Shown here in pieces: positions 10,798-27,073 of a stretch of DNA of 64,000 nt; position 1 is the first letter of the stretch; every line of letters starts with the position of its first letter. Source of the stretch: Mesorhizobium sp. ZC-5 (GTDB lineage: Bacteria > Pseudomonadota > Alphaproteobacteria > Rhizobiales > Rhizobiaceae). The position numbers were made by a program, and so were the translations under genes. Under the pieces are notes generated by a model. That model saw only the letters and a list, made by a program, of their open reading frames with translations. It was not told where the DNA came from and ran no database searches. The stretch is from NCBI RefSeq assembly GCF_025753855.1, contig NZ_JAOWPT010000020.1, forward strand, positions 1-64,000, written 5' to 3'.

Positions 10798-10944
10798 TTG
10801 CTGTAACTCGCCGAGCGAACAGAATGCCGCGGCGGCAAGCTGTTCAATATTGGCGTTTGCCCGCCATCAGGTCCTGGCGGCAGGCGCCATCGTAATCAAG
10901 GTGGCGGACGACAGACCGGTCCATAATTTTCTGGCCGTCTTCAT
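10798..10944 (-). pseudogene. arylsulfatase relic (signal peptide plus deleted remnant)
   Basis: ATG 10944 opens a 25-residue reading frame beginning MKTARKLWTGLSSATLI and ending at TGA 10867. It closely matches the signal peptide of the intact sulfatase at 24941-26551 (MKMARKLWVSLSAATFM). The DNA beyond the stop still matches a later part of that gene: GATGGCGGGCAAACGCCAAT here against GATGGCGGGCAAGACACCAA there, which encodes MAGKTPNIDRLAAEG. An internal piece has therefore been deleted, the frame shifted and the rest lost. The ribosome site GAGGAA and upstream element are preserved. The relic ends about 40 bp before the RND adaptor gene. Confidence 0.75.
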
Positions 10945-11006
10945 AGTGGATTCCTCGTCTTTCGTACACTGTCCGGAGGACACTCACATTTTGGCGATTT
11001 CGAATG

Positions 11007-11023
11007 GAGTACGTTACCGTTAC
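11007..11023 (-). promoter_or_regulatory. shared 17-bp promoter element, copy 1 (core inverted)
   Basis: The minus strand reads GTAACGGTAACGTACTC, 63 bp upstream of the sulfatase relic ATG. Compared with the other three copies the 11-bp core is reverse-complemented while the GTACTC arm keeps its place. The flanking CCATTCGAAATCGC is shared with the intact sulfatase promoter. Confidence 0.65.
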
Positions 11024-11137
11024 AGGCGCTTATATCGAACATCGTTCTGCGTGAAGGCGAGGCATTCACTTTCGCGGCGCATTCTGTTTGCCGGCTCGCT
11101 CATCCTCGAAGGCATCGTTGCCGGACTGGCCGACAAT

Positions 11138-11153
11138 TTACCGTTACGTACTC
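11138..11153 (+). promoter_or_regulatory. shared promoter element, copy 2, upstream of mscS-like gene
   Basis: TTACCGTTACGTACTC on the plus strand, 91 bp before the MscS-like ATG at 11244. It is identical to copies 3 and 4 over 16 bases and has the same orientation relative to its gene. The element is not part of any coding sequence. Confidence 0.65.
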
Positions 11154-11243
11154 ACCCCAGCGATCAGGAAGCCGCAAAATCCGGTTCGACTACAGGCTGG
11201 CCGGCCCATTGGTGCGCAGCTCGTCAACGTATGGGAGGTCGGC

Positions 11244-13397
11244 ATGATTTCGAACCGCGCCAGCAGGATGAAGCCGTCTTGGTCCGCGCTGTGCTGGATA
11301 GCGCTGGTGTCACTGGTTTGCCTGACGGCGCTGGCCGGCGCGTCGGCCGCGCAAACGGAGCAGCCAACCGCAGGTTCGGCGAGCGAGGGGGCGGCTTCCA
11401 ACCCGAAGATTCAGGAATTGATCCGGCTACTGGACGATCCCGAAGTCCGCGCGGCACTCAAGGCAGCCGAACCGACTGCAACCGAACCGGAACTGCCGGT
11501 GGCAACGCAGATCGCCACATGGGAGAACGGCATCCGTGGGCATCTCGACAAGCTCGTCAATGCGTTTCCGCGCATCCCAGGCGAGGCGGTGAACGCCGTC
11601 CAGGTTGTGCAGACACAGATCAACAATCGTGGATTCGGAACAGTCCTCATATTGTTCGCCGGTCTGCTCGTACTCGGGTTCGGCGCCGAATGGCTATTCC
11701 GGCTTACAGTGCTGAGGACGGGGAACGACAGCGACCAGGCCGTTTCCCCCCGCTCGGACCTCGCCGCCGTTCTGCTTTCGGAACTGGCCCCGCTCATCGT
11801 CTTCGCCCTGGTCAGCGCAGGAATCTTCCTCTCATTCTCGTGGCCGCCGCTGCTGCGCCTCGTGGTCATGACCTATCTGGTCGCCTTCATCGTCGTGCGC
11901 TTGGTTCTGGCGATCGGCAGGATCCTGCTTGCCCCCCACATCGACACAAGCCAGGCGGCGGCCGCCGGCAAGCCCTCCCGGCTTGTTTCCATTACCGACA
12001 CGGAGGCACGCTTCTGGTACCGAAGACTGATCATCTTCACCGGCTATTTCATGGCCGCCTGGGCTTCAATCAGTCTCCTCGCGGCGCTGGGCTTCTCACC
12101 TGATGTGAGAAGTCTCCTCTCCTATCTGGCGGGGATCTTGCTGGTGCTGCTGACGCTCGAAATGCTTTGGAAGCGTCCGAACACGCTTGAGACCGGACAG
12201 TCATCGCGCACACGAAATTGGCTGCTCAGCATCTATCTCGTCATACTTTGGGGCCTTTGGGTGGCTGGGCTCAATGGCGTTCTGTGGCTCGGCATTTACG
12301 CGCTGCTCTTGCCGCGCCTGTTGGCGATCGCCGGCCAGGTTGCCGCCGCGATTGCCGGAGATCGAGGGAACCCTGCTTCGGCGCATTCGTTCCGGGCCGT
12401 GATAATCGTACGCGGAGTCCGGGCGTTGGTGGTCCTGCTCGCCGTCATGTGGCTTGCCGCTATCTGGCGCCTGAACCCCAACGCCTTGACCGAGGACGGC
12501 ACTACGGCTGGCGGGATCATGCGCGGCCTGCTTCAGGGCATCATAATCCTGCTCGTCGCCGACCTGCTGTGGCATCTGGCGAAAGCCTATATCGGCCAGA
12601 AGCTCGAAATGGCGACGGCAGACGGGTCCGTCAGCCCCGCTGAGGCTGCTCGCAGAGGCCGGTTGCGGACATTGCTGCCGATTTTCCGCAACATGCTTGG
12701 TGTCTTCATTGCTACCGTAGCGGTCCTCATCGTTCTTTCCGGTCTCGGCGTACAAATAGCCCCTCTGATCGCCGGCGCCGGCATATTCGGCGTGGCTATC
12801 GGTTTCGGTTCGCAGACACTGGTCAAGGATGTGATCAGCGGCGTGTTCTATATGCTGGACGATGCCTTCCGCGTCGGCGAGTACATCCAGAGCGGCAGCT
12901 ACAAGGGAACCGTCGAATCTTTCAGCCTTCGCTCGGTGAAGTTGCGACACCATCGCGGTCCGGTGTTCACGGTGCCATTCGGCGATCTCGGCGCGGTACA
13001 AAACATGAGTCGCGACTGGGTGATCGACAAGTTCGTGATCCGCGTGCCGTTCGACACCGATATTCCGAAGGTGAAGAAGCTGGCGAAGAGCGTCGGCGCC
13101 GAACTGAAAGCCGATCCGGAACTCGCCCAAGAAATACTGGAAACGGTGAAGATGAAGGGCGTCGAGCAGTTCAGCGACTTCGGCATCGAGATTAGCTTCG
13201 CCTTCAGGGTCAGACCCGGGCATCAGTCGGTGGTGCGGCGTCGCGCCTACACGATGATCAGGCAGGCTTTCATGGACAATGGCATCGAATTCGCCCAGCC
13301 GACGGTCCAGGTGGGAGGCGATAACAAGACGGCAGGAGCTGCCGCGGCGACCTCCGCGATGATGCGCAAGAAAGCCACCGAGATTGCGGGAGGTTAG
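11244..13397 (+). CDS. MscS-family mechanosensitive ion channel
   Basis: 717 residues from ATG 11244, preceded by GGGAGGTC. Residues 1-36 form a signal peptide or first TM, followed by an acidic periplasmic N-terminal region. At least eight to ten hydrophobic segments lead to the pore helix and beta domain, with IAPLIAGAGIFGVAIGFGSQTLVKDVISGVFYMLDD matching the MscS core (in pieces: GFGSQ, LVKD, ISG). The cytoplasmic C-terminal half contains VPFGDLGAVQNMSRDWV and the alpha/beta vestibule. It resembles the large YbiO/YnaI-type channels that release solutes on hypo-osmotic shock. It carries the shared promoter element also found before the sulfatase. Confidence 0.92.
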   Translation: MISNRASRMKPSWSALCWIALVSLVCLTALAGASAAQTEQPTAGSASEGAASNPKIQELIRLLDDPEVRAALKAAEPTATEPELPVATQIATWENGIRGHLDKLVNAFPRIPGEAVNAVQVVQTQINNRGFGTVLILFAGLLVLGFGAEWLFRLTVLRTGNDSDQAVSPRSDLAAVLLSELAPLIVFALVSAGIFLSFSWPPLLRLVVMTYLVAFIVVRLVLAIGRILLAPHIDTSQAAAAGKPSRLVSITDTEARFWYRRLIIFTGYFMAAWASISLLAALGFSPDVRSLLSYLAGILLVLLTLEMLWKRPNTLETGQSSRTRNWLLSIYLVILWGLWVAGLNGVLWLGIYALLLPRLLAIAGQVAAAIAGDRGNPASAHSFRAVIIVRGVRALVVLLAVMWLAAIWRLNPNALTEDGTTAGGIMRGLLQGIIILLVADLLWHLAKAYIGQKLEMATADGSVSPAEAARRGRLRTLLPIFRNMLGVFIATVAVLIVLSGLGVQIAPLIAGAGIFGVAIGFGSQTLVKDVISGVFYMLDDAFRVGEYIQSGSYKGTVESFSLRSVKLRHHRGPVFTVPFGDLGAVQNMSRDWVIDKFVIRVPFDTDIPKVKKLAKSVGAELKADPELAQEILETVKMKGVEQFSDFGIEISFAFRVRPGHQSVVRRRAYTMIRQAFMDNGIEFAQPTVQVGGDNKTAGAAAATSAMMRKKATEIAGG

Positions 13398-13448
13398 GCC
13401 GCCGCAGCAGCCTTACAGAAGACGGCCATCGTGCGGGTGGTTTCGGGC

Positions 13449-15194
13449 TTATTGAACGTACAGACCAGCCTTCGAAAGGCCCGTCTCAAGCGAGGAGACG
13501 AATTCGGCTTCGAAACGGCGCGCCGCCATATCGTTTCGAAAATATCCCTCAAATCCCACACGTGAATTTCGAAGCGCTTCCGCCGCCGCTTCAGCCTCCT
13601 GCTTTCTGCCAAGCTGTCCGAGAGCTGCCGTGCGCAGAACCTCGACGTCGCAGCAAGGTGCATCCTGCCGTTGCCATAGACGGGTCAATGTATCTTCGAA
13701 CGCGCCGCGGCGATAAGCGTCCATCGCCAGCGCGATATCCACATCGCGATAGGAGGTCTTGTCGATCCGATCGGCCTTCAACACGAGAGAGATACCTTCT
13801 TCCCATTTGCCGGTTATGCAGAGTATTCGACCAAGCCTTGCCAAGGCCCTGGCGTCGTTCGGATTGAGAGAAACGGCTCGACGCCCAGCGAGGATGGCCG
13901 CCTCGATTTGCCCCGACCGGTACAGCGCCGACATCTGCGCGAAGGCACTCGACGCCGAATGGGGCGCCAATGCCACCGATCTGTTGGCGAGTTCGAGGGC
14001 GCGAGCAGACAGCCCGCTCGTCGCCTCGGGTGGGCTGGCCAGAAGCACGGTGGAAAGAGCGGCGTGCGCGTCCGCGTCGCCCGGCCGGCGCTTCAGAGTC
14101 TGCTCCAGGCAAACCCTGGCCTGCGCCAAGGCTTCGGATTCGTGCGATCGGATGGCATGATACGAACGCAGCACACATCCGTTCCCGAGTGACGAGCCTG
14201 CGAAGTCGCGGCGCGCTTCACTGTTGTTGATAACACCTTCGACACCGGCGATCTGGTTCGCCAGCAGGCCGACTAGTGTCCCGGCAGGCTGTTCGCTATC
14301 CGGCGCGGTTTCGCTTCGCGAGATCAGCGCTTCGCCGCTGTGCAAGTCGATGACCTGCCACCAGACCGATCGCGCCGGTTCGCCCGGAAGATATTTCATC
14401 ACGACTTGATAGTGGCCTTGCGGCGACGTGATTGTCGAAGACGTGCGCAACTGGGTATCGACCGACAAATCGTTACCGGTGGGAAGCACAAGCACCTTGA
14501 GCGTCTGGAATTGCGACAGCGCCACCATGAGCGCGTCCCGCATCTTCTGGGCGTCGCCATCGAAGCTTTCACCGGCCGACCTCATGTCGATCGTGACGCT
14601 GGGCTTTTCAGTAAATGTCACGCTCGGCTGCTGGCCGAATATCTGGAACAGAACGTAGGAACCCAGCAAAAATCCGCCAACGGCACCGATCGAAATGGTC
14701 GCCCGGATCAATCTGGCGGAAGGTTTCAGCCGAGAGAATTGGAAACCTCGGTCTATACCCGAGGCCCGGGCGAATTGGCCGCCTGGCGGAGATATCCGGC
14801 TTTCAGCGCGATCGCCTGCGGGAATTCGGCTGACGGCAGGGATATAGCGTCCTCTTGGGAGATCAATTCGAAGGCCACCGTCCTGTCCATGAAGTTCATA
14901 ATACTGCGTAAGGGATGCGCGCAGCCGCGTCGCTTCAATACGCACGATAGGATCGATCGCCGGATCAAAGTTCTCCGGACGGCCGAAAACGTCTATCGCG
15001 ATAGAATAAGCCTTGACCTTGTTCTCCCCGCCCTGGAGCATCTGTTCGGTGACATAGCGGAGAAAATTCTTGTTTCGCTCCGTCGAGCGAAACTCGGGGT
15101 CGGAGAGAACCCTCTCCAGTTCAGCCATGGTCTCCCGCTCTGTGATCGCCGGCTCGTCCGGCGCGATATCACAGCGCAATGTGTTGACTTGCAT
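13449..15194 (-). CDS. membrane-anchored TPR protein with N-terminal adenylate-cyclase-associated domain
   Basis: 581 residues from ATG 15194, with GAGGGG five bases upstream; a GTG at 15206 is possible. Residues about 20-105 (FRSTERNKNFLRYVTEQ, VKAYSIAIDVFGR, FDPAIDPIVRIEATRLR, LPRGRYIPAV) form a domain familiar at the N-terminus of rhizobial TPR and cyclase-like signalling proteins. One TM segment follows near residues 165-185 (ISIGAVGGFLLGSYVLF), then a periplasmic-looking region and several TPR-like helical pairs (residues 360-530, for example AVSLNPNDARALARLGRI). No catalytic motif is visible. It converges with mscS and diverges from the autotransporter block. Probably a sensor or scaffold; function unproven. 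Confidence 0.75.
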   Translation of the reverse strand: MQVNTLRCDIAPDEPAITERETMAELERVLSDPEFRSTERNKNFLRYVTEQMLQGGENKVKAYSIAIDVFGRPENFDPAIDPIVRIEATRLRASLTQYYELHGQDGGLRIDLPRGRYIPAVSRIPAGDRAESRISPPGGQFARASGIDRGFQFSRLKPSARLIRATISIGAVGGFLLGSYVLFQIFGQQPSVTFTEKPSVTIDMRSAGESFDGDAQKMRDALMVALSQFQTLKVLVLPTGNDLSVDTQLRTSSTITSPQGHYQVVMKYLPGEPARSVWWQVIDLHSGEALISRSETAPDSEQPAGTLVGLLANQIAGVEGVINNSEARRDFAGSSLGNGCVLRSYHAIRSHESEALAQARVCLEQTLKRRPGDADAHAALSTVLLASPPEATSGLSARALELANRSVALAPHSASSAFAQMSALYRSGQIEAAILAGRRAVSLNPNDARALARLGRILCITGKWEEGISLVLKADRIDKTSYRDVDIALAMDAYRRGAFEDTLTRLWQRQDAPCCDVEVLRTAALGQLGRKQEAEAAAEALRNSRVGFEGYFRNDMAARRFEAEFVSSLETGLSKAGLYVQ

Positions 15195-15219
15195 GGCACC
15201 CCTCACTTCCGCTTGCCAT

Positions 15220-15260
15220 CCTAGTTCGACGAACAGGTCGATCTAGTCGGCGAAGCGACC
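15220..15260. repeat. direct repeat flanking the autotransporter gene, copy 1
   Basis: This copy holds GAACAGGTCGATCTAGTCGG (15231-15250) followed by a one-base variant and GAAGCGACC. It matches 22363-22402 over about 40 bp with few differences, in the same orientation. Weaker similarity continues rightwards: ATGGTCGTCATTTGCCGAAT here against ATGGTCGTCGTTGCCGATCC at the kinase start. Confidence 0.8.
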
Positions 15261-15383
15261 ATTCGGGATGGCGACGCCAAGCTCGAATGGTCGTCATTTG
15301 CCGAATCCGCTTCATCCACAAATGCCAGCAACTGCCTTGTTCATCGAGCGGCTGGATGAATTCGATGGACTGCAAGGCTTCCT

Positions 15384-18300
15384 TTAGAACTTGTAGCTCA
15401 ATCGGAGCGAGCCGCCGTGACTGGTGTAGGTATCGGAGAACGCGCCCGAATATTGCGCGCGTACGCTGAAGCCGTTGTCGTTGGCCAGATCGACGCCGGC
15501 GGTCAGCCGGCCCACCACATCCGCCAGCGGCACTTCGCTGTCGAAGCCGCCGATCCCGGCCGGCGCCTGGGCCAGACGCGCCGAGGTATCCCAGCTGTCG
15601 ACAGTGCTGAAGCTCACTCCGGCCGCCGCATACGCCCGCATCACCGTCGTCTCGCTCAGTTCCACCCGCGTGCCGATCTCCACAGCCGGCGTCGCGTGGA
15701 AACTCCACTGGCCGGCGCCGTCGACCAAAAGATCGAGTGCACCGGTTCCCGACTCGCGATAGCCGTCGGCATGCGTGTAGATCAGGTCGAGATCCACCAA
15801 CGGCCGCACATAATACGGGTCCTGCGTAAAGGTGTAGGCCGCGCGCACCCGGGCACTGAGATTGTAGATATCCGGATCGCCTTCGGCCTGGCCGGCAAAG
15901 CCCGGAATGCGGATCGTGCGCGTGTTGTCGTACCAGCCATAGCTGCCGGCAAGGGCGCCGGACAATAGCCACGGGCCGTTCTGGTGCTTCAGCGAGACGC
16001 CGGCATAGAGGATATCGCCGTCGGCGTTGACCCGGTCATCGTCGCCGCGAATGGAACTGCGGTCGTAGCCGCCGGCGAGACCAACGAACCAGTCCGGCGA
16101 CACCTCGAACTGGGCACCCGCCTGCATCGAGTAGGTCGTGGTGTCGAAGCCCGATATGCCACCCGAAGCCTTCTGGTCGAGCACCTGGCCGCCAGCCTGG
16201 GCCCAGCCGCATTCGGTCTCAGTCAGGACCGAGGTTCCCGCGGCAAACATCGGGCAGCTCAGCAGCAGGTCCAGATGCTGCTGCGTGGTGGCGATGCTGC
16301 CGGCCGCGGCCGCGCCGGAAACACCGGGCGACATGTCGGACAGGGCCGATCCATAGCTGCCTACGTCGTCGTCGGCGAGATTTCCGAGCGTGCCGAACAG
16401 CGTGCCGAAAGAGCCGCCGCCGACATCCCAGATCTCCTGCAGGTGACCGGCAACGTTGTTCTGATCGTCGTTCAGATCGGCGCCGGGCTCGGCAAAGTGA
16501 GCCGAGGTTGCCGAAACCGACAGTTCGTTTCCTGCCCGGGTGACAGCATAGTCGAAGAGTGCCGACTGGGCGCTCAGCGAATGGTCCAGGGTGCCTCCGA
16601 CGGTAAGGAACGGCAGGCTGATGTCGGGCAGGACGCTGATGGCGTTCACCGCGAACTTGCCTTCCAGCGTAGCGTCGCCCTCGACGGTCAGACGGTCCAT
16701 GCGGGAGCCTGCGAAGTCGGCCGTAATCGCCAGTATGCCACCCGTGTCCTGCGTGAGGTCGCCGGTGATTCTGGTGGTGTCGATGCCGCCGGAATGGCCG
16801 ATCGTCAGTCGGCCATGATTGACCACGTCAGCTTCGTAGATCTTGGCATCCGTCAGCAGGCCGCCCGTCTGGTTGATAACGGAGATGGGCATGTCGTGGC
16901 CGAAGCGGGCCGCCACCGGGATGGTGTCGTCGGTGGATATCTTGCTGGTCGGCGCGTTGCCGTCGACGCTCGTCTCGAAGACGCTGCCGCTGATCGTGCC
17001 GGAGTTATGCACATTCAGTGTGCCGGACTGCGTTCTGCCATTGGTATATTGGATGGCACGGCCCGAGGCGGCCGAGACAGAGCCTCCGGCACTGACGGTC
17101 ATCACATTGTTCTTCCCGCCCGAAACCCACACACCGGTGCCATTGTCGCCCGAGCCGCCGGTGACGGAACCACTGACGTTGACGCTGACCGTACCGTTGT
17201 TCTCCGTCCCCGCATCGCTCTGCGCGAAGATGCCGATCGCGTCCTTGCCGGTCGCCAGGATAGCCCCGCCGGCATTGAGGGCGACCGTCACGTTGCCGCT
17301 TTTGCCGGACGTCGAGAGACTTCCGTTGGAGCCGATGAAAGCGCCGCTGGCATTGCCGCCGAAACCGCCGCCGCCGCCGATCGACTGGGCCAGGATGCCG
17401 TAGGCATAGTCGCCCGACGTGAAGATGTTTCCGTTGGCCGTGACGGTGACATCGTGGCCGTCCCCGGTGCCGGCGGAACTCATGCCCTTCAACGAGAGCG
17501 GCGCACCCGAGGCGGTGCCGCCGATGCCGCCGCCGCCGCCAATCGACTGGGCAACAAGGCCATGGGCGGCAATGCCCAGCGTTTTGATCTGGCCATTCGT
17601 CAGGTCGACCGTGACGACGCCGCCGTTTGTTGTTCCACTGCCGCCGGAGCCTCCAACCACGATCGAGGCGATGCTGTCGGCCTCGCCGGCGCCGCCGATG
17701 CCGCCACCGCCGCCGATCGACTGCGCCACGAGGCCATGGGCCCGGTCGCCATAAGTGGTCAGGAAGCCGCCGTAGTTCAGGTCGACTTCGCCGCCGCTGC
17801 CGCCGACACCACCGCTGCCGCCGACGGTGAGATCGATCGAGTGGCTGTCGTCGTCTTCGGCCGCCGTGCTGCTGCCGGCGCCGCCGACGCCGCCGCCGCC
17901 GCCGATCGACTGTGCAACGAGGCCGTGCGCGTCGTCGCCAGTGGTCTGCAGGGAGAGCCAGCTTCCCACATCGGTCGTAACTTTGCCGCCATTGCCGCCA
18001 ACGCCGCCGCTGCCGCCGATGCCGCCGCCGACGGTGATCTTGCCGGCCGCCTGGTCGGAACCATCGCCGCCCTGCCCGCCGCCGCCGCCGATCGACTGCA
18101 GCAGCACGCCATAAGCGCTATAACCAGTGGTATTGACAACGGGGGTGCCGTGGTCAGCGTCGAAGGTGATAGCGACCGTGCCGCCATCGCCACCGGCACC
18201 GCCGCCGCCGCCGACGCCCACATCGATGTTGGCCGTCGCCTGGCTGCCGGATATGGTCGATGAGCCGGCTGTGCCGCCGCCACCGCCGATCGATTGTGCG

Positions 18301-21300
18301 ACAATGCCGTCGGCCCAGTCGCCCGTGGTGGCGATGTTGCCGGCATGCGTCAGTGTGACCGATCCGCCATGGGCGGCCGTGCCGCCTGCGCCGCCTACAC
18401 CCACTGAGAAGTCATATTTGCTGTCTTCGTCATCGGGCTTGTCCGAATCGTCGGATGTGGCCGACGCGATCGAGCCGCCGAGACCGCCGCCGCCGCCAAT
18501 GGACTGAGCCAGCACCCCGTCGGCGTCGCCGCCTGATGTGACGATGCTCCCCGCCGTTTTGACGTTGATGGTGCCCCCGTCGCCGCCACCACCGCCAGTG
18601 CGACCGACGGAAACCGTGACCCCGGCGGAAATCTCGCCGAGGTCGTCGTCGTCGGTGTCCTCCGCGGCAGCTTCCTCCTCGCCGCTGCCGGGCAGGCTGG
18701 CGCTGCCCGACAGGCCGACGCTTACGCCTTGCGATGTTCCGCCACCGCCGCCGATGGACTGGACAAGCAGGCCGCGCGCGCCCGAACCGTTGGTCTGCAC
18801 CTTGGTGCCGTTCTCGAACTGCACATTCGCTTCCCCGCCGGCGCCGCCGCCACCGCCCGAACCGCCGACTCCGACCGTTGCCGTCAGGTTGAAGCCGCTG
18901 CCGTACTGCTTGCTGTTGACGCTGCCGACGCCGCCATTGCCGCCGCCGCCGCCGATCGACTGCACCACGACCGCATTGGCATAGTCGTCGGCCGTCGCCA
19001 CCCAGGCGGTGTCGTTGAGATCGACCGTGACGGTACCGCCGGCGCCGCCGCCACTGCCCGAGCCTCCGACCGAGACACCGATATCGGCGCTGATCGTGTC
19101 GACCGTGCCGGCCGTCGAAGCCATCGACGACGCACTGCCGCCGTTGCCGCCGCCGCCGCCGATCGATTGCGCCACGAGGCCATGCGACGAAACGCCTTTC
19201 GTGGAGACCCCGGTGTTACCGTCCAGGGTCAGCGACACGCCGCCGCCGGTATGGGACGATCCACCGCTGCCGCCAACGGCCGTGGCCACGCTCATCGCCA
19301 GGGAGACGTCTTCGCCGGTCGGCACCGCCACGGTGAGAGCGTCGGCGACCGAGGAGCCGCCGCTGCCGCCGCCGCCGCTGATCGACTGGGCGAGCACGCC
19401 GATGGCGTCAGTGACGTCGCCGCCGTCCTGGCCGGTCTTGATGGCACTGTTGGTCAGGTGCACGGTAACCGTATCACTGGTGCCGCCGGAACCGCCGGTG
19501 CCACCGACAGCCACCGACGCCGTGAAGCCGAGACCTGCGGAATAGGAGCTGGCGGAACCACCGGTGCCGCCGCCACCGCCGATCGACTGTGCCACGATGC
19601 CTGCGGCGTGGGACCCTTGGGTCGTCAGATTCAGGCCCTGGAAGGCGACGTTCACGGTATTTGCGTAGCCGCCGCCGCCGCCGCCACCGCCAACCTGGAA
19701 GCTGCCGAACCCGGCATCGCCGCCGGTGGCGTTGCCGCCATTGCCGCCGCCGCCGCCGATCGACTGAGCGATTATGCCGACCGCACCGGAGCCCGCCGTC
19801 GCGACGGTGACGGCCTGCGGCGCTCCAAAGACTGTAGGACAATCGCCGCCGGAATTTTCATTGGTGACGCAGACCCATCCGCCGCTACCGCCGCCCGAGG
19901 CGGTGCCACCGACGCCCACCGCCGGAACCCCGACCGACAGGTCGATCACATTGCCGCCATTGCCGCCGCCGCCGCCGACCGATTGCGCCATGATCGCATG
20001 CGACATCTCACCCTGCGTGGTGACCGAGCCGCCAGTCAGCAATACGTTTGCATGGCTGCCGGAGCCACCAGCCCCGCCCGAACCTCCGACGGTCGCGATG
20101 CCCTTCGCACCGCCGCCCGAACCACCGCCGCCGCCGATCGACTGCGCCATGATGCCGATCGCCGCGTCGCCGGCCGTGCTGATGGCGCCCGAACTCTGGA
20201 CCTCGGCAGTGCCGGCATAGTTTGCGGCGCCGCCGGTACCGCCGATCGACAGCACGCCGCCAGCCGTGCCGGCAGCACCGCCGCCGCCGCTGATCGACTG
20301 CGCCAGGATGCCATGCGCCGAATAGCCGGAGGTGGTGATCGCGCCTGTATTCTGGACACTGGCCGTCCCGGCAGCGCCGCCGTCGGCGCCATCGCCACCC
20401 AGCTCAAGCGTCAGCCCGTTGGCGATGCCGCCTGTGCCGCCGCCGCCGCCGATCGACTGCACCAGAACGCCGTAGGAATGGTCGCCAAGAGTGATGATCG
20501 TCCCACCAACGCTGGTGGAGGTGGCGGCGTTGATGAAGGTGGCCGTTTCGCCATTGCCGCCGTTGCCGCCATTGCCGGCGCCGCCGCCGAGCACGTCGGT
20601 GAAGTCGCCGCCCGTGCCGCCGCCGCCGCCGACCGAATGCAGGGTCACCGCGGCCGAGAAATCCCCGGTCGTCATGATACTGGAACCACTTCTCATATGG
20701 CCGTTCACGCCGCCGGCATCGCCGCCGTAGCCGCCGCCGCCGGCCTGGCCGGCGATGGCCGTGTCGTCGCCGCCATTGCCGCCCTGGCCGCCGATGCTCT
20801 CACCCAACAGGCCGTAGGCATAGTTGCCGTCCGTCTCGATCGTGCCGTAGTTGTTCATCCGGATCGCGCCTCCCGTGCCGCCGTCGCCGCCGGAGCTATC
20901 CTCCTCCCCCCCGTCGCCGGCGCCGCCGTCGCCGCCCTGGCTCATAGCGATCATGCCGGCGAGGTAATCGCCTTGGGTCGAAATCGTAGCGCCCGATTGG
21001 ACGGTTAGGAACGTCTCAGCGTAGGAGCCGTCGCCACCTCGACCCCCGGTCGATGAACTCCAGCCACCGCCGCCGTCGCCGCCCCGAGTGACAGCGCTGA
21101 TGCCACCCATCAGCTCGGGGATGGTGCCAGTGCCAACGACGGTGATATCGGCGTAAGTGCTGATGACTATCTGCGCGCCAGCCGCCCCGTCGCCGCCATT
21201 ATCGGACGAATCCTGGGATGCTATGCCGATACCGCCCATACTGCCCGCGGAGATGCCGCCGCTGGCCTGCGCATCCGCGTAGACGCTGATCGCGCCGATC

Positions 21301-22217
21301 GAAGGGTCTTCCTGGGAACCGTTAGTGATGGTGATGGGGCCGCCATCGCCGCCCGCGCCATTCTGGTTGCCACCGACGTTGCCTAAGGAAAAAGCATTGA
21401 TGCCAAAGACCCCGCCATCATCGCCTATCCCCTCCAGCGGGCTGGCCGCGCTGCCGAGATTCATTTGCCCGGTGTTGGTGATGATGATGATCCCGCCATC
21501 CCCGCCGCCACCGCCGCTCTGGTCGCCCGTACCGCTATTTTGGTTGCCGCCCATGCCTCCTATGCTCGAGGCAAAGATGCCATCCACCCCCAAACCTGGC
21601 TTGAGCGATTCTATAGACAACGCGCCGGTGTTGGTGATCTCCACCACGTTGCCGCCGCCGCCGCTGCCGCCGCTCGTGTCGTTGTTACCGTTATCGTAAG
21701 CTCCGTCGCCACCCTGGGACTGCCCCGAAATCAGGCCGACGAGTAGACTATCACCTGGATCTGTGTCGGACGTCAGGTTCACACTGGCAGCATTGGTGAT
21801 GCTCACACTACCACCACCGCCGGCGAAATTATTGTCGTAGCCATCACCGCCACGCGAGAATCCGTGTATGACACCACCGCCCTCAGCCCATGACGGTACA
21901 GTGTAAGGGAGGTCGCTACCGGCGGTGTACGTGCCAGCTGTCGTAAGGTTTACCTTGTCTCCGTCTACGGCGTCGTTATCTTTAGAGCCGTCAGCGCCCT
22001 GGCAATTAGCCCAAGTGTATCCAAAACTGCCGCCTGTAAAGCTTTGGGTCGACGGCGCATCGCACGCCTGTGCATCGCCGATCATGGCCAGACTGAACAT
22101 GCCCAGGGCCGATGCCATCAGCAGACGCGATCTGTTCTGATCCAATATGGATACGGAGATCTTCGGGCGGCCCGATGATTTTTGCCGGGCTTTCCCGGTG
22201 CTGGCAGCGTGCTTCAT
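15384..22217 (-). CDS. giant glycine-rich autotransporter with C-terminal beta-barrel
   Basis: 2277 residues from ATG 22217 (MKHAASTGKARQ), with a GGGGAAG ribosome site. An extended signal peptide is followed by LLMASALGMFSLAMIGDAQA. The passenger (about 70-1900) is built of some 25 copies of a 50-70-residue unit whose core is (H/Y/D)G(I/L)(L/V)AQSIGGGGGxGG; at least 14 copies have QSIGGGGG exactly. Each unit starts with alternating beta strands of the type V.TTG(D/S)..A, as expected of a beta-helix. The last roughly 280 residues are an autotransporter beta-domain ending in LRLSYKF, with the terminal Phe needed for BAM recognition. Probably a surface-exposed adhesin or matrix protein. No protease or catalytic motif is seen. 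Confidence 0.92.
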   Translation of the reverse strand: MKHAASTGKARQKSSGRPKISVSILDQNRSRLLMASALGMFSLAMIGDAQACDAPSTQSFTGGSFGYTWANCQGADGSKDNDAVDGDKVNLTTAGTYTAGSDLPYTVPSWAEGGGVIHGFSRGGDGYDNNFAGGGGSVSITNAASVNLTSDTDPGDSLLVGLISGQSQGGDGAYDNGNNDTSGGSGGGGNVVEITNTGALSIESLKPGLGVDGIFASSIGGMGGNQNSGTGDQSGGGGGDGGIIIITNTGQMNLGSAASPLEGIGDDGGVFGINAFSLGNVGGNQNGAGGDGGPITITNGSQEDPSIGAISVYADAQASGGISAGSMGGIGIASQDSSDNGGDGAAGAQIVISTYADITVVGTGTIPELMGGISAVTRGGDGGGGWSSSTGGRGGDGSYAETFLTVQSGATISTQGDYLAGMIAMSQGGDGGAGDGGEEDSSGGDGGTGGAIRMNNYGTIETDGNYAYGLLGESIGGQGGNGGDDTAIAGQAGGGGYGGDAGGVNGHMRSGSSIMTTGDFSAAVTLHSVGGGGGTGGDFTDVLGGGAGNGGNGGNGETATFINAATSTSVGGTIITLGDHSYGVLVQSIGGGGGTGGIANGLTLELGGDGADGGAAGTASVQNTGAITTSGYSAHGILAQSISGGGGAAGTAGGVLSIGGTGGAANYAGTAEVQSSGAISTAGDAAIGIMAQSIGGGGGSGGGAKGIATVGGSGGAGGSGSHANVLLTGGSVTTQGEMSHAIMAQSVGGGGGNGGNVIDLSVGVPAVGVGGTASGGGSGGWVCVTNENSGGDCPTVFGAPQAVTVATAGSGAVGIIAQSIGGGGGNGGNATGGDAGFGSFQVGGGGGGGGYANTVNVAFQGLNLTTQGSHAAGIVAQSIGGGGGTGGSASSYSAGLGFTASVAVGGTGGSGGTSDTVTVHLTNSAIKTGQDGGDVTDAIGVLAQSISGGGGSGGSSVADALTVAVPTGEDVSLAMSVATAVGGSGGSSHTGGGVSLTLDGNTGVSTKGVSSHGLVAQSIGGGGGNGGSASSMASTAGTVDTISADIGVSVGGSGSGGGAGGTVTVDLNDTAWVATADDYANAVVVQSIGGGGGNGGVGSVNSKQYGSGFNLTATVGVGGSGGGGGAGGEANVQFENGTKVQTNGSGARGLLVQSIGGGGGTSQGVSVGLSGSASLPGSGEEEAAAEDTDDDDLGEISAGVTVSVGRTGGGGGDGGTINVKTAGSIVTSGGDADGVLAQSIGGGGGLGGSIASATSDDSDKPDDEDSKYDFSVGVGGAGGTAAHGGSVTLTHAGNIATTGDWADGIVAQSIGGGGGTAGSSTISGSQATANIDVGVGGGGGAGGDGGTVAITFDADHGTPVVNTTGYSAYGVLLQSIGGGGGQGGDGSDQAAGKITVGGGIGGSGGVGGNGGKVTTDVGSWLSLQTTGDDAHGLVAQSIGGGGGVGGAGSSTAAEDDDSHSIDLTVGGSGGVGGSGGEVDLNYGGFLTTYGDRAHGLVAQSIGGGGGIGGAGEADSIASIVVGGSGGSGTTNGGVVTVDLTNGQIKTLGIAAHGLVAQSIGGGGGIGGTASGAPLSLKGMSSAGTGDGHDVTVTANGNIFTSGDYAYGILAQSIGGGGGFGGNASGAFIGSNGSLSTSGKSGNVTVALNAGGAILATGKDAIGIFAQSDAGTENNGTVSVNVSGSVTGGSGDNGTGVWVSGGKNNVMTVSAGGSVSAASGRAIQYTNGRTQSGTLNVHNSGTISGSVFETSVDGNAPTSKISTDDTIPVAARFGHDMPISVINQTGGLLTDAKIYEADVVNHGRLTIGHSGGIDTTRITGDLTQDTGGILAITADFAGSRMDRLTVEGDATLEGKFAVNAISVLPDISLPFLTVGGTLDHSLSAQSALFDYAVTRAGNELSVSATSAHFAEPGADLNDDQNNVAGHLQEIWDVGGGSFGTLFGTLGNLADDDVGSYGSALSDMSPGVSGAAAAGSIATTQQHLDLLLSCPMFAAGTSVLTETECGWAQAGGQVLDQKASGGISGFDTTTYSMQAGAQFEVSPDWFVGLAGGYDRSSIRGDDDRVNADGDILYAGVSLKHQNGPWLLSGALAGSYGWYDNTRTIRIPGFAGQAEGDPDIYNLSARVRAAYTFTQDPYYVRPLVDLDLIYTHADGYRESGTGALDLLVDGAGQWSFHATPAVEIGTRVELSETTVMRAYAAAGVSFSTVDSWDTSARLAQAPAGIGGFDSEVPLADVVGRLTAGVDLANDNGFSVRAQYSGAFSDTYTSHGGSLRLSYKF

Positions 22218-22362
22218 CCGATGCTTCCCCCAAATCGTTAAGCGTGCACAAGCAGGAATGGCGGCACGCCTTGCGCCACCTATCTCAACCTGCAATGGTA
22301 GGAATCGCGAGTACGAGACACCTACATCCAAATCATTGACGCGTTACCGCACAGAGACACGT

Positions 22363-22402
22363 CCTATTCGATGAACAGGTCGATCTAGTCGGTGAAGCGA
22401 CC
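22363..22402. repeat. direct repeat flanking the autotransporter gene, copy 2
   Basis: Contains GAACAGGTCGATCTAGTCGG (22373-22392), identical to 15231-15250. It lies in the divergent gap between the autotransporter start and the kinase start. The two copies are about 7.1 kb apart with the autotransporter gene between them. Confidence 0.8.
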
Positions 22403-22446
22403 CAATTCAGGGCCTGGCGGGGGCAACATTGGGAAGGGCAGTATCG

Positions 22447-23592
22447 ATGGTCGTCGTTGCCGATCCCGATCATCGTGGCGAATTGAATGGAGTCGCGGAC
22501 GCTGGCAACCGGCGCCACCGCGCCCTGTGGTCACTCGACGGCTCGAACGTCGAGCTGGTACGGTCGCTCGGCTCGTTCTGGCGGGCGCAAACCGCCGGCT
22601 GGCTCTTCAGCGCCCTGTTTGGCATCGTCAGCCGCGTCCTTGCTTTCGAGGACATCGTTTTCGCACTGACGCTGACCGCCATTCTCGAGCCGCTGGGCTT
22701 CGCACTCACCACCCTCGCCCACCGCGTGTTCCGCGACCGGACGGTCAGCATCACGCTGACAGTCGTCCTGGTCGCGCTGATGCTCTCGATTGCCGGCGGG
22801 CTGCTGCAGATGTACGTCTCCAACACGATCAAGGGGATCCTGCTGCCGGGTGGAGATCCCGGCAATGTCGCCGCCGGCGTGGCGATACCGCTGGTCTACT
22901 ATACGCTGGTCTTCCTGGGATGGTCTCTTGCCTATCTCTGGATCAAGGCGGATGCCGACGGTCGCGCGCAGCGAATCCAGCGCCACCAGGCTCGGGAGGA
23001 AGCGCTGCGGTCCGAGTTGCATCAGCTCCGTCTGCAGCTCGATTCTCACTTCCTGTTCAACGTGCTGAACACGGTTGCGATGGAGATCCCGGATGAGCCG
23101 GACACCGCGCTCGAGATGATACATCGCATCACGGCCTATCTGCGCTATCTGCTTGAAAATCAATCGCGACGCATTTGCTCCCTGTCCGACGAGATCGAGG
23201 CCATGCGTGCCTATGTCCGGATCCAGGAACTGCGGTTCGAGGGTCGTCTCGACTGCGTGGTCAAGGTGGAATCGGCTGCCCGGCCAATTGCCGTGCCGCA
23301 TCTCATCCTGCAGCCATTGGTCGAGAATGCCGTAAAGCACGGACTGCCGTCGCCAGTTGGACGTTTCACGGTAGGCATCACCGTTGAATGCCAGGGCGAT
23401 GACATCATGATCGAAGTCAGCAATCCGGGCAGGTTGGCAACGCACGAGCGCGACCGCCCGGCCGTGGGGCTGGCCAATATCCGCCGGCGGCTGGAATTGC
23501 ACTATCCGTCTGGCCACGCGCTGTCGCTGATCCAGATGGGCGACACGGTCGTCGCGCGCCTAGCATTGAAGGGACCGGCATGCTTCGCCTGA
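22447..23592 (+). CDS. LytS/YehU-type sensor histidine kinase
   Basis: 381 residues from ATG 22447 with GGAAGGG upstream; a TTG at 22429 is also in frame. Four hydrophobic segments lie in residues 45-175. The His_kinase domain follows (LRSELHQLRLQLDSHFLFNVLNTV), with the phospho-acceptor His in SHFLFN, then a HATPase with the N-box LVENAVKHGL and G-box VGLANIRRRLE. This fold is characteristic of the LytS/YehU family. The stop overlaps the start of the LytTR regulator gene by 13 bp, so the pair is translationally coupled. The signal sensed is unknown; no GAF or PAS domain is apparent. Confidence 0.9.
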   Translation: MVVVADPDHRGELNGVADAGNRRHRALWSLDGSNVELVRSLGSFWRAQTAGWLFSALFGIVSRVLAFEDIVFALTLTAILEPLGFALTTLAHRVFRDRTVSITLTVVLVALMLSIAGGLLQMYVSNTIKGILLPGGDPGNVAAGVAIPLVYYTLVFLGWSLAYLWIKADADGRAQRIQRHQAREEALRSELHQLRLQLDSHFLFNVLNTVAMEIPDEPDTALEMIHRITAYLRYLLENQSRRICSLSDEIEAMRAYVRIQELRFEGRLDCVVKVESAARPIAVPHLILQPLVENAVKHGLPSPVGRFTVGITVECQGDDIMIEVSNPGRLATHERDRPAVGLANIRRRLELHYPSGHALSLIQMGDTVVARLALKGPACFA

Positions 23593-24377
23593 TGGTTGTC
23601 GACGACGAGCCGCCGGCCCGGCGCGGGCTGAAGCGGCTCATGCAGGCACACGAAGACGTAGACGTCGTCGGCGAAGCCGGCTCGCTGGACGAGGCTCACG
23701 CGCTGACGCATACCCTGCGGCCCGATGCGATCTTCCTCGACATAAACCTCGGTAGCGATCATGGCTTCAGCCTGATTGAGCGGCTCGATCCGGTGCCGGC
23801 TATCGTCTTCGTGACGGCGTACAGCACCTACGCGCCGCAAGCTTTCGATGTCGCGGCGCTCGACTTCCTGCTCAAGCCAGTCGAACAGGAACGACTGGCG
23901 CTGACGCTCGAGCGACTACGCAATTATCAGCGCTCGCTCGAGCATGCGGGAGCCCAGATTCTCGACAACGAGACAGCCCCGACCACTATGCCGGCCAAGC
24001 GCCGTCTCCATATCAAGATGGCAGGGCAGTCGATCGTCGTGCCGACCGACGGGATCGCCACGCTAACCGCCGAGGCGGACTTCACGCGTATAATGATGGC
24101 GGACGGCCGCAACCATCTGGTTTGCCGGCTGCTCGGTCAATTCGAAGCGGAATTGCCAAAGCCACCGTTCTTCCGTGTCAGCCGTTCCCTGGTCATCAAT
24201 CTGGATCGAATCGAGCACGCCAGATCATACGATGGCGGGCGCATGCTCGTATCGCTTGGACCGTCCATCGAGCCGATGATGCTCGGCCGCACGGGCAGCA
24301 GGCGATTGCGGCGTCATCTATATGCCCCGGCCGATATCAAAGCCGCGGACGACGACGTGAAATTGTCCGCCGGCTGA
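23580..24377 (+). CDS. LytTR-family response regulator
   Basis: 265 residues. The receiver domain (1-120) has the acidic pair DDE (8-10), phospho-acceptor Asp54 in IFLDINLG, the Thr of FVTAYS and Lys of LLKPV. After a linker, residues 150-250 form a LytTR DNA-binding domain (IVVPTDGIATLTAEADFTRI, FFRVSRSLVINLDRIEH). LytTR proteins usually bind paired direct repeats about a helical turn apart. The gene overlaps the kinase gene. Candidate targets are the autotransporter promoter and the four copies of the GTTACCGTTAC element nearby, which is inference. Confidence 0.92.
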   Translation: MLRLMVVDDEPPARRGLKRLMQAHEDVDVVGEAGSLDEAHALTHTLRPDAIFLDINLGSDHGFSLIERLDPVPAIVFVTAYSTYAPQAFDVAALDFLLKPVEQERLALTLERLRNYQRSLEHAGAQILDNETAPTTMPAKRRLHIKMAGQSIVVPTDGIATLTAEADFTRIMMADGRNHLVCRLLGQFEAELPKPPFFRVSRSLVINLDRIEHARSYDGGRMLVSLGPSIEPMMLGRTGSRRLRRHLYAPADIKAADDDVKLSAG

Positions 24378-24398
24378 TCGCGTGGTTGCCCGGTATCG

Positions 24399-24845
24399 CT
24401 AGTGCCGGAGCCCAACTTTTCCGACAGTATCCCGGGACCATGAAAATGGCCGACCTTCCTCGCTGACAAAATACACGATCATGTATGCAACGATCAGGGC
24501 ATCGACCATGACCAGAACCAGGTAGCCCATCACCCAGGGCTGACCAAGGTTGCTGAGGAAGAGATAGGCCAGAAAGGCCTTTTCCGTGGCAGCCAGCAAC
24601 ATGGTCTCGAATCGCAACCACGGACGGAAACCGGCGGCCACCATCAGCGCACCGATCCCAAAGATCGTAAAGCCCCAGTGCCGCAAGGCGGGTACACTGG
24701 AAGACGTATAATCGACCAGTCCGCCGAGCATCAGCGTGAAGAAATTGATATCGATTGCGAATACCAACGTCGCGCATGTGAGCAGGCCGGATACGATGAG
24801 AAACCATCGGATGGTCTTGGCGATGAAGCGGTTAACGATGGACAT
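24399..24845 (-). CDS. small four-helix integral membrane protein
   Basis: 148 residues from ATG 24845. Hydrophobic segments lie at about 12-32 (WFLIVSGLLTCATLVFAI), 55-75 (HWGFTIFGIGALMVAAGF), 80-97 and 103-125 (GYLVLVMVDALIVAYMIVYF). The C-terminus is charged. No family is recognised with confidence; it has the look of DUF-type small inner-membrane proteins. It converges with the LytTR regulator (21 bp between stops) and lies downstream of the sulfatase on the same strand, 96 bp after its stop, so it could be read from the sulfatase promoter. Confidence 0.7.
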   Translation of the reverse strand: MSIVNRFIAKTIRWFLIVSGLLTCATLVFAIDINFFTLMLGGLVDYTSSSVPALRHWGFTIFGIGALMVAAGFRPWLRFETMLLAATEKAFLAYLFLSNLGQPWVMGYLVLVMVDALIVAYMIVYFVSEEGRPFSWSRDTVGKVGLRH

Positions 24846-24899
24846 TGATCGGCTTCCGGCGATGAAGAGACTGCGAACTGATCATCCAGTTGTTCGAGA

Positions 24900-24922
24900 G
24901 CGGGCAGTCACAAGCTGCCCGC
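24900..24922 (-). terminator. hairpin after the sulfatase gene
   Basis: GCGGGCAG (24900-24907) and CTGCCCGC (24915-24922) form a perfect 8-bp stem around a 7-nt loop, about 20 nt after the sulfatase stop on the minus strand. No U-run follows, so partial termination or transcript stabilisation is as likely as full termination. Confidence 0.4.
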
Positions 24923-24940
24923 GCTCACGGCCGTCCATTT

Positions 24941-26551
24941 TTACTTGGCCATTGCTCCTTGCGCCGCAGCGATTTTGGCCTTTACCGATTCGAGATTGAA
25001 GCTCGCGCCCTGCTGCATCGGCGGGAATTCGATCGCCGACTTCGCCAGTCTGGCCACCTCCTCCTGCACGAACACGAAGCGCCAGAACTCGTACTTGAAC
25101 CAGTCGAAATATTGCAGGGAGCCTTCCTTGGTCCCGCTGTCGGGCCAACCGGCGCGTTCGAACGGGTCCAGGCGGAGATTGGTCAGGTATGGTGCGGACA
25201 CCGTGATCCTGCCGCCCAGCCAACCCTCGGGCTGGTCGATGAAACGATACTTGTAGTCGCCGATACGCAGCGCACCAAGCTGGCTTTCGGCGAAATACCA
25301 AAGCTCCCGCCGAGTTGAGGGACCCTTGCCGGTAATCAGGTCCATCTGATTGTAGCCGTCGAGATGTACCTTGAAAGTCGTATCCCCGATCTGCTTGCCC
25401 TGCTTGAGTTCATCAATGATGTTCGGATTTCCAGCGGCGGCCAGGAATGTCGGGAACCAGTCGAGACCCGACATGATACCGTTCTCGACTTTGTCCTCCG
25501 GCACCTTGCCCGGCCAGCGGACGATCGCCGGTACGCGGAAGCCACCCTCCATGACCGTCCCCTTGTTTTGGGCGAAAGGGGTCATTCCACCGTCAGGCCA
25601 GGTAAAGAGTTCCGTGCCGTTGTCGGTCGTGAAGACGACGATCGTGTTGTCGTCCTCGCCTATCGCCTCCAACTTCTCCATTACGGAGCCGACCGTATCA
25701 TCGAGTTGCGCCATCCCGGCTTCCTGGATGGACCAGCCGTTCTGCGAATTTCGCATCGCATCGTATTTGGGGGACAGATGCGTGACGATGTGCATGCGCG
25801 TAGGGTTCAGCCATACAAAGAACGGCTTGTCGTCGGCTTCTGCCTTGTCGATGAACTTGAGCGTGTGGTCGAGGATTTCATCGTCGACGGTTTCCATGCG
25901 CTCGGGACACAACTCGCCAGCGTCTTCGATCTTTTGCTTTCCGACCTTGCCCCAGCGTGGGTCCACAGTTGCGTCGTCGACATCGCTCGCCCAGGCGTGG
26001 ATCATGTTGCGAGGGCCGACTTGCGATCTCATTTCCTGCGGATAGGTAGGCTGGCAGGGGTCTTCCATCGCATCGAGGTGATAGAGATAGCCATAGAACT
26101 CATCGAAGCCGTGTACGGTCGGCAGAAACTCGTTCTTGTCGCCAAGATGGTTCTTGCCGAACTGGCCCGTAGTGTAGCCGATATCCTTGAGTGCGGCGGC
26201 AATCGTCACCGCCTGCGCGGGAAGGCCAACAGGCGCGCCGGCTTGCCCGACGGTTGTCATGCCGGTACGGACCGGCAGTTCCCCGGTAATGAATGCCGAG
26301 CGCCCCGCTGTGCAACTCGCCTCACCGTAATAATCGGTAAACAGCATGCCCTCCGCGGCAAGCCGATCGATGTTTGGTGTCTTGCCCGCCATCATGCCCC
26401 GATGGTAGGCGCCGATATTCCACATACCGATGTCGTCACCCATGATAACGACGATATTGGGCCGATCTCCCTGCTGTGCGACCGCCGGCGCGCTCACCAT
26501 CATAAAGGTGGCGGCCGACAGACTGACCCAAAGCTTCCTGGCCATTTTCAT
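24941..26551 (-). CDS. periplasmic type I sulfatase (arylsulfatase)
   Basis: 536 residues from ATG 26551. The start is supported by GAGGAA eight bases upstream and by the same arrangement in the relic at 10944; two further in-frame starts upstream are less likely. The signal peptide MKMARKLWVSLSAATFMMVS ends at about AVAQ. The N-terminal alkaline-phosphatase-like fold has NIVVIMGDDIG with metal-binding Asp39/Asp40, and the formylglycine motif CTAGR at 80-84, a C-x-A-x-R variant. GELPVRTGM, HLGDKNE and TTDNGTELFTWPDGG supply further active-site elements. It hydrolyses sulfate esters; the substrate is unknown. The activating enzyme must be encoded elsewhere. Confidence 0.93.
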   Translation of the reverse strand: MKMARKLWVSLSAATFMMVSAPAVAQQGDRPNIVVIMGDDIGMWNIGAYHRGMMAGKTPNIDRLAAEGMLFTDYYGEASCTAGRSAFITGELPVRTGMTTVGQAGAPVGLPAQAVTIAAALKDIGYTTGQFGKNHLGDKNEFLPTVHGFDEFYGYLYHLDAMEDPCQPTYPQEMRSQVGPRNMIHAWASDVDDATVDPRWGKVGKQKIEDAGELCPERMETVDDEILDHTLKFIDKAEADDKPFFVWLNPTRMHIVTHLSPKYDAMRNSQNGWSIQEAGMAQLDDTVGSVMEKLEAIGEDDNTIVVFTTDNGTELFTWPDGGMTPFAQNKGTVMEGGFRVPAIVRWPGKVPEDKVENGIMSGLDWFPTFLAAAGNPNIIDELKQGKQIGDTTFKVHLDGYNQMDLITGKGPSTRRELWYFAESQLGALRIGDYKYRFIDQPEGWLGGRITVSAPYLTNLRLDPFERAGWPDSGTKEGSLQYFDWFKYEFWRFVFVQEEVARLAKSAIEFPPMQQGASFNLESVKAKIAAAQGAMAK

Positions 26552-26612
26552 AGTGCGCATTCCTCGTGTTCGAACTGCCGGAGGCAGGCTCACATCTTTG
26601 CGATTTCGGATG

Positions 26613-26629
26613 GAGTACGTAACGGTAAC
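26613..26629 (-). promoter_or_regulatory. shared 17-bp promoter element, copy 3, upstream of sulfatase
   Basis: The minus strand reads GTTACCGTTACGTACTC, ending 62 bp before the sulfatase ATG. The following CCATCCGAAATCGC is also present after copy 1, showing that the whole promoter was duplicated. Confidence 0.65.
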
Positions 26630-26713
26630 AGGCTGTGCATCGAGGCTGGCGATCGCATTGGACGACCACCAGCGGGAGGGAGCATCAGCTGGTCACGAAT
26701 TGAGTGCGGCGGC

Positions 26714-26980
26714 TCAATTGGGGCCCTTACCGCCGCCGATGCAAATCTTGATGATATCCTGTTCGATTTCGGCGCATATATTCTCATATTCTAATATTAT
26801 GAGGCGGTGCCGCTCCGGATCACTTAGACGCAGACGCTCCAAAGTGTCGGTGGCATCGTCGAACGCGCCGCACAGACCAAGTATGCCCTCGTCTCTCGCA
26901 CTGAGAACCTGAAGCTGCCCCCGCAACGCAGGCATTTTGAGCATCAGCTTCAACAAGCCCCTTCGATCTGCTGCCGACAT
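26714..26980 (-). CDS. 88-residue protein of unknown function
   Basis: ATG 26980 is preceded by GAGGGCAGG. The protein (MSAADRRGLLKLMLKMPALR) is predicted to be all-helical, with hydrophobic Leu-rich turns (GILGLCGAFDDATDTLERL) and a C-terminal helix containing two Cys and many Glu (EYENICAEIEQDIIKIC). No signal peptide or TM segment. I do not recognise the family. It is downstream of element copy 4 and lies 162 bp before the sulfatase start on the same strand, so it is probably part of the same regulon and possibly cotranscribed. Confidence 0.65.
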   Translation of the reverse strand: MSAADRRGLLKLMLKMPALRGQLQVLSARDEGILGLCGAFDDATDTLERLRLSDPERHRLIILEYENICAEIEQDIIKICIGGGKGPN

Positions 26981-27056
26981 TGTCCTGCCCTCGCAAGTGT
27001 CATCGACAAGTGCCGTCTGAAAATTCAGTCACTGTCGCAGCCGGCGCACCAAAAGC

Positions 27057-27073
27057 GAGTACGTAACGGTAAC
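27057..27073 (-). promoter_or_regulatory. shared 17-bp promoter element, copy 4, upstream of the 88-aa gene
   Basis: The minus strand reads GTTACCGTTACGTACTC, 76 bp before ATG 26980. It is identical over 17 bases to copy 3, although the flanks differ, so conservation is confined to the element. Confidence 0.65.

Follow-up and report, generated by a model that had tools for sequence, protein, structure and literature searches.

A conserved 17-bp promoter box ahead of sulfatase and envelope genes in Rhizobiales, and its candidate membrane-anchored regulator

Does a short sequence repeated in front of a sulfatase gene, a mechanosensitive channel gene and the gene for an 88-amino-acid (88-aa) protein in Mesorhizobium sp. 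ZC-5 belong to one regulatory circuit and, if so, which protein reads it? The repeat, a 17-bp element that we call the box, lies in positions 1 to 64,000 of contig NZ_JAOWPT010000020.1, a stretch referred to here as the window. Across genomes, the box is rare, mostly oriented, conserved and placed ahead of a coherent gene set. This distribution supports the view that it marks a shared control circuit in the rhizobial order. We put at roughly 70% the probability that the box serves as operator for a conserved activator and that the activator binding it is the 585-aa product of the gene at 13449–15206 of the window.

The box in the window and in related genomes

The element is genuine, far beyond chance. 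Pattern matching over the window recovered four copies at the places given in a preliminary description of this DNA (Table 1), against a mean of 0.02 matches in shuffled windows, none of which reached four. That description had placed all four 55–91 bp before a start codon in the same orientation, which agrees with the gaps to the likely starts: 61 or 67 bp for the sulfatase, 76 bp for the 88-aa gene, 90 bp for the MscS gene and 62 bp for a sulfatase relic. The count of separate copies has to be lowered. An alignment showed that 10884–11027 is homologous to 26490–26633 over 144 bp that take in the element, the leader and the first ~22 codons of the sulfatase, so that copies 1 and 3 are products of one duplication and the window holds three independent occurrences. 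Copy 1, earlier called a variant with its core inverted, does differ in sequence, but all three of its base differences from copy 3 fall at the W, S and W of a symmetrical, self-complementary GTWAC-S-GTWAC and are better read as changes at degenerate positions. The truncated duplicate precedes an efflux operon. That the repeats are no more than leftovers of a duplication or a mobile element, without a regulatory role, would fit this duplicated stretch, but flanks were less than 60% alike in 56 of 57 compared sites, with the box standing before the same kinds of gene in several genera; we give this explanation practically no weight.

Over the whole genome (6.34 Mb), GTWACSGTWACGTACTC occurs at six places when as many as two mismatches are allowed, and a reversed control at one. 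Four of the six are those in the window, one is an exact copy on contig C9 (20814–20830) and one, with two mismatches, lies on contig C7. Because the exact copy on C9 precedes a gene for a secreted SH3 protein (Pfam; L015 8986–11472), the regulon is not strictly local. The earlier proposal of a local regulon thus stands as regards a shared element before the named genes and falls as regards its confinement to them.

The box was found in other genera before SH3, MscS-operon and sulfatase-type genes. One genome from another genus of the same family (G035) carries six sites in ~8 kb, which precede a Phenol_MetA_deg outer-membrane protein gene, the gene of a second outer-membrane-like protein, an SH3 protein gene with MscS downstream, a DUF900 hydrolase gene, an 88-aa homologue and a DUF202 gene followed by sulfatases and DUF1254. 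Its SH3 protein is 66% identical to the one on C9, its 88-aa homologue shows 55% identity, and the window sulfatase shares 45% identity with a sulfatase of its cluster. Among 101 relatives, near-matches beyond G000 and G035 amounted to one each in G046, G052 and G065; no cluster was visible around the site in G052 (L016), and the site in G065 (L017) lies ~350 bp before a regulator-family gene.

The 88-aa gene served as a marker for the circuit. It has a match in 46 of 395 family genomes, 29 of them with a strong homologue (E ≤ 1e-20). The pattern KTWACNGTWACGTRCTY, which relaxes the strict pattern to K at position 1 and N at position 6, is present in 34 of the 395: in 27 of the 29 strong genomes (203 sites) versus 7 of the 366 others (Fisher p 4e-33, with phylogeny left uncorrected). 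Those seven comprise 2 of 17 weak-match genomes and 5 of 349 genomes without a match, each with a single site. A reversed control gave 18 matches over all 395 genomes and zero in the 29, so isolated sites of this kind are at the level expected by chance. The two strong genomes without KTWACNGTWACGTRCTY are G887, a metagenome-assembled genome (MAG) of Mesorhizobium whose locus has diverged sites, and G340. Of the 29 strong loci, 28 carry a same-strand box ahead of the 88-aa gene and close to it: 20 boxes match exactly, 7 have one mismatch and 1 has three. The element is therefore not common at random positions and is kept at orthologous promoters with unrelated flanks; neither of the two outcomes that the preliminary description had named as refuting a regulon was observed.

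Scanning contigs with an 88-aa alignment added five loci, in Ochrobactrum sp. CM-21-5, a Rhizobiaceae MAG, Pseudaminobacter manganicus, a Mesorhizobium MAG and a Rhizobiales isolate. All but one of them carry at least three sites; the exception, the Mesorhizobium MAG locus (L023), has two diverged sites in the same promoter region (9852 and 9902), which came from a core scan, and a de novo 16-mer comparison of that locus returned no shared box. Plasmids carry the arrangement as well. In 12 loci examined, out of 62 plasmid records with an 88-aa match, GTWACSGTWACGTRCTY precedes the 88-aa gene with at most one mismatch in 8, with two in 2 and with three in 1; the twelfth, L062, has GTTACAGTAACAATCTC at that place. 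L053 and L062, both from R. leguminosarum, share a shifted box whose position 12 is A. The strict pattern (G at position 1, S at position 6) found the source genome only among 397 genomes of the order, as did an 88-aa search over 289 genomes of the class, made with a two-sequence query in a set with few close relatives.

Promoter geometry and regulon content

The anatomy of the box was read from 56 sites, 1 of 57 having been dropped as redundant. T2, A4, C5, G7, T8, C11, G12, T13, C15 and T16 never vary, as the search pattern demands, and position 1 is T in 23 of the 56. Outside the pattern, at a fixed distance downstream, A stands at +40 in 33 of 56 sites and T at +44 in 34 of 56, with both present in 30 of 57. 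A −10 box is best conserved at an A and at its final T. The +40 A and +44 T may be these bases, which would put the box centre near −42, a position typical of an activator that touches RNA polymerase. Of 58 sites, 54 have a gene start on the tail side (−300 to 400 bp) and 29 have one on the opposite side; the four tail-side misses are the relic and three 88-aa genes that the open reading frame (ORF) caller skipped. GTWACR half-sites are enriched upstream: the adjoining 60 bp hold 18 of them, where shuffling gives 2.8 on average and 10 at most, and only 1 was found downstream, in a test that covered 73 sites including redundant ones and in which GTWACR came foremost by count of eight patterns tried. 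The TWACGT half-site showed no enrichment there (3 against a mean of 1.4).

These features also bear on a reading in which the box and the downstream motif together form the promoter of an alternative sigma factor of the extracytoplasmic function (ECF) type. Such a promoter would have a preferred orientation and a fixed spacing to a downstream motif short of a full TAnnnT box, as seen here. The box is, however, 17 bp long with a symmetrical core and has extra half-sites upstream, and no ECF sigma gene was noticed in the annotated or ORF-called clusters, which were not searched with a profile for it; we consider this reading improbable. A helix-site test (Mann-Whitney p 6e-6; 35 of 36 loci, L069 having no site under its pattern) was rejected as a sign of many evolutionary events, since the group with T at position 1 forms one clade in a tree drawn without the near-duplicates L078 and L086.

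Across Rhizobiales, KTWACNGTWACGTRCTY precedes genes for the 88-aa protein, sulfatases, a sulfatase-activating enzyme, MscS, SH3, DUF202, DUF900, DUF2092 and outer-membrane proteins, and outside the recurring cluster also DUF1254/1214 genes. We surveyed 20 of 69 off-cluster places in four genomes, choosing the downstream gene mechanically. The targets were DUF1254/DUF1214 (6), sulfatase (5), alkyl sulfatase (1), DUF308 (2) and one each of HlyD, DUF992, epoxide hydrolase and glyoxalase; one further protein had no family and one site no open frame. Sulfatases and DUF1254 proteins together account for 12 of the 20, and 17 of the 20 sites belong to just two genomes within a single genus, so that some are orthologous pairs. 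The sulfatases linked to the box vary at their cysteine motif: CTAGR in the window enzyme and in L014 14711–16264, CSPTR in L014 10889–13210 and CTPGR in L127. A co-regulated enzyme resembling the formylglycine-generating enzyme may suit the CTAGR variant. A search of open-access papers, judged by titles and abstract openings, gave no account of this regulon or regulator family; the term DUF1254 reportedly stands beside other regulons in some papers, PMC6710368 among them.

The candidate regulator and other possible readers

What could read the box? The gene at 13449–15206 has a homologue in 28 of 29 strong 88-aa genomes. The amino-terminal domain of its product is predicted to be OmpR/PhoB-like and matches no Pfam family; there is no match to the PF00072 receiver domain, and NCBIfam yields no more than a weak hit within the TPR repeats (E 0.049). 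Simple hydropathy (mean 1.73, cut-off 1.6) points to a single membrane span, at 169–191, after the DNA-binding domain. At least one such stretch is present in 16 of 17 homologues, with two in L055 and none in L024. At 21 of the 29 loci, the box and the 88-aa gene come first and the regulator gene next, all on one strand, an order that suggests positive autoregulation.

From these patterns we infer a membrane-anchored, one-component regulator with a cytoplasmic OmpR/PhoB-like winged helix, one span and a periplasmic TPR domain. It would sense an envelope or periplasmic signal, bind the GTWAC-N-GTWAC core and, once bound, assist RNA polymerase by standing in for a good −35 box, much as PhoB does at pho boxes. 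The 88-aa protein could be its cytoplasmic partner; four helices are predicted for that protein, and a Foldseek search with its structural model returned nothing useful (best E 3.6).

Three observations weigh against this assignment. The −10 match is weak, since a full TAnnnT occupies the expected place in just 3 of 56 sites; G769 has box sites, and no regulator homologue was found in it; and some genomes that lack the box have paralogues of the regulator too.

The absence from G769 would be explained if the regulon were real and the box were read by a different regulator (AraC, a LuxR-type response regulator, TetR or similar), with the TPR protein as a regulated neighbour. With its symmetry, the GTWACSGTWAC core would make a good site for a dimeric repressor, and some clusters do contain other regulators, of AraC type in L041 and L056, LuxR type in L051 and LysR type in L053 and L054. 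These do not recur as the TPR protein does in the clusters viewed, where they were recognized from annotation or by eye with a profile search for LytTR only, and the asymmetric GTRCTY tail, which usually points toward the gene, fits an activator better than a repressor. We therefore regard a different reader as unlikely, if still the most serious competitor to the TPR protein.

A separate possibility is the LytTR response regulator encoded beside the window sulfatase (23580–24377). Its gene adjoins the sulfatase in the L020 and L022 clusters as well (57% identity), and the core ACCGTTACG presumably resembles LytTR-type sites. PF04397 was nevertheless present in just 4 of 12 site-bearing genomes; since it is missing from the other 8, among them the six-site G035, we rejected LytTR as general reader of the box, and that this neighbour reads it at all seems very improbable.

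Returning to the TPR protein, a broader proposal can be built on it, one that we hold tentatively and at slightly under even odds. On this view, the protein would be one member of an undescribed family: one-component activators, anchored in the membrane, that pair a DNA-binding domain absent from Pfam with a TPR sensor in the periplasm. Through the 17-bp box they would exert direct control over a regulon of sulfatase, DUF1254 and envelope genes throughout Rhizobiales. The 88-aa protein would be the cytoplasmic partner, and paralogues, for example in G340 (L117), would each serve a parallel circuit whose box, GTTACGGTAACATACTC, is shifted. In G340 the homologue sits elsewhere in the genome; the gene next to it is weakly 88-aa-like and has GTTACGGTAACATACTC as its box.

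Several paralogous or adjoining arrangements were seen. At L117 7371–9593, a regulator of the same family is divergent from the weak 88-aa-like gene, and this circuit adjoins genes that by eye are DUF900-like and MscS-like. At L043 7063–11359, a paralogous regulator lies beside proteins that by eye resemble DUF1254 and outer-membrane proteins; the region has a single match to the box, with three mismatches, and is perhaps a sister regulon with a different operator. In G769, a reverse transcriptase gene (PF00078; L112 13572–14909) adjoins the box-bearing cluster.

Gene context and comparison with known systems

Table 1. Box copies and associated genes in the window.
Feature	Position	Strand	Remarks
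Box copy 1, GTAACGGTAACGTACTC	11007..11023	-	Three mismatches to GTTACCGTTACGTACTC (14/17); precedes sulfatase relic; paralogous to copy 3
Box copy 2, TTTACCGTTACGTACTC	11137..11153	+	One mismatch to GTTACCGTTACGTACTC (16/17); precedes MscS gene
Box copy 3	26613..26629	-	Exact GTTACCGTTACGTACTC; precedes sulfatase gene
Box copy 4	27057..27073	-	Exact GTTACCGTTACGTACTC; precedes 88-aa gene; same kind of place in 28/29 homologous loci
Duplicated sulfatase promoter and first ~22 codons (relic)	10884..11027	-	Alignment with 26490–26633
MscS-type mechanosensitive channel	11244..13397	+	717 aa from ATG 11244; Pfam PF00924, PF21082
Candidate regulator, 585 aa	13449..15206	-	Winged-helix-like ~23–127; probable membrane span 169–191; C-terminal TPR repeats
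Histidine kinase and LytTR response regulator pair	22429..24377	+	PF06580 and PF04397; cluster neighbour
148-aa hydrophobic protein	24399..24845	-	Downstream of sulfatase; no Pfam family
Sulfatase	24941..26593	-	PF00884; likely start ATG 26551 or 26545
88-aa protein	26714..26980	-	Regulon marker gene; four helices predicted; no Pfam or NCBIfam family

Proteins that by eye resemble the 148-aa one adjoin the LytTR gene in L020 and L022, with a box upstream of each. The minus strand of the window at 15384–22331 holds a 2315-aa open frame that by eye resembles a glycine-rich autotransporter adhesin.

The circuit joins several domains of unknown function (DUF1254/1214, DUF900, DUF2092, DUF202 and the 88-aa protein) and many sulfatases in one testable scheme, for which an operator can be named and a candidate regulator put forward. 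It suggests that some 'hypothetical' TPR proteins of Alphaproteobacteria may be transmembrane transcription factors whose DNA-binding domain lies outside Pfam. Its pairing of sulfatases with a mechanosensitive channel and with proteins of the cell envelope points to a response concerned with the envelope or with sulfate esters.

Among known systems, the candidate would resemble ToxR/CadC-type regulators in a predicted layout of N-terminal OmpR-like winged helix, membrane span and C-terminal outer domain, and it would likewise act without a kinase. It differs from them in a DNA-binding domain that matches no Pfam family, an outer domain made of a TPR array, and other targets; a term search of a survey of transmembrane regulators (PMC10269533) gave no hit for TPR or tetratrico. 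With PhoB/OmpR-family regulators at class II promoters it would share the predicted DNA-binding fold and a box in the place of the −35 region. At PhoB promoters, the activator box replaces the −35 element and its repeats are spaced at 11 bp, whereas the GTWAC-N-GTWAC repeats are spaced at 6 bp and the candidate has no receiver domain match. LytTR response regulators are like it in that one lies beside the window sulfatase, and unlike it in their absence from two-thirds of the box-carrying genomes (8 of 12). HilA/EilA-type regulators come close in combining a winged helix with TPR repeats; those proteins are soluble, in contrast to the predicted membrane span of the candidate, whose DNA-binding part is covered by no match.
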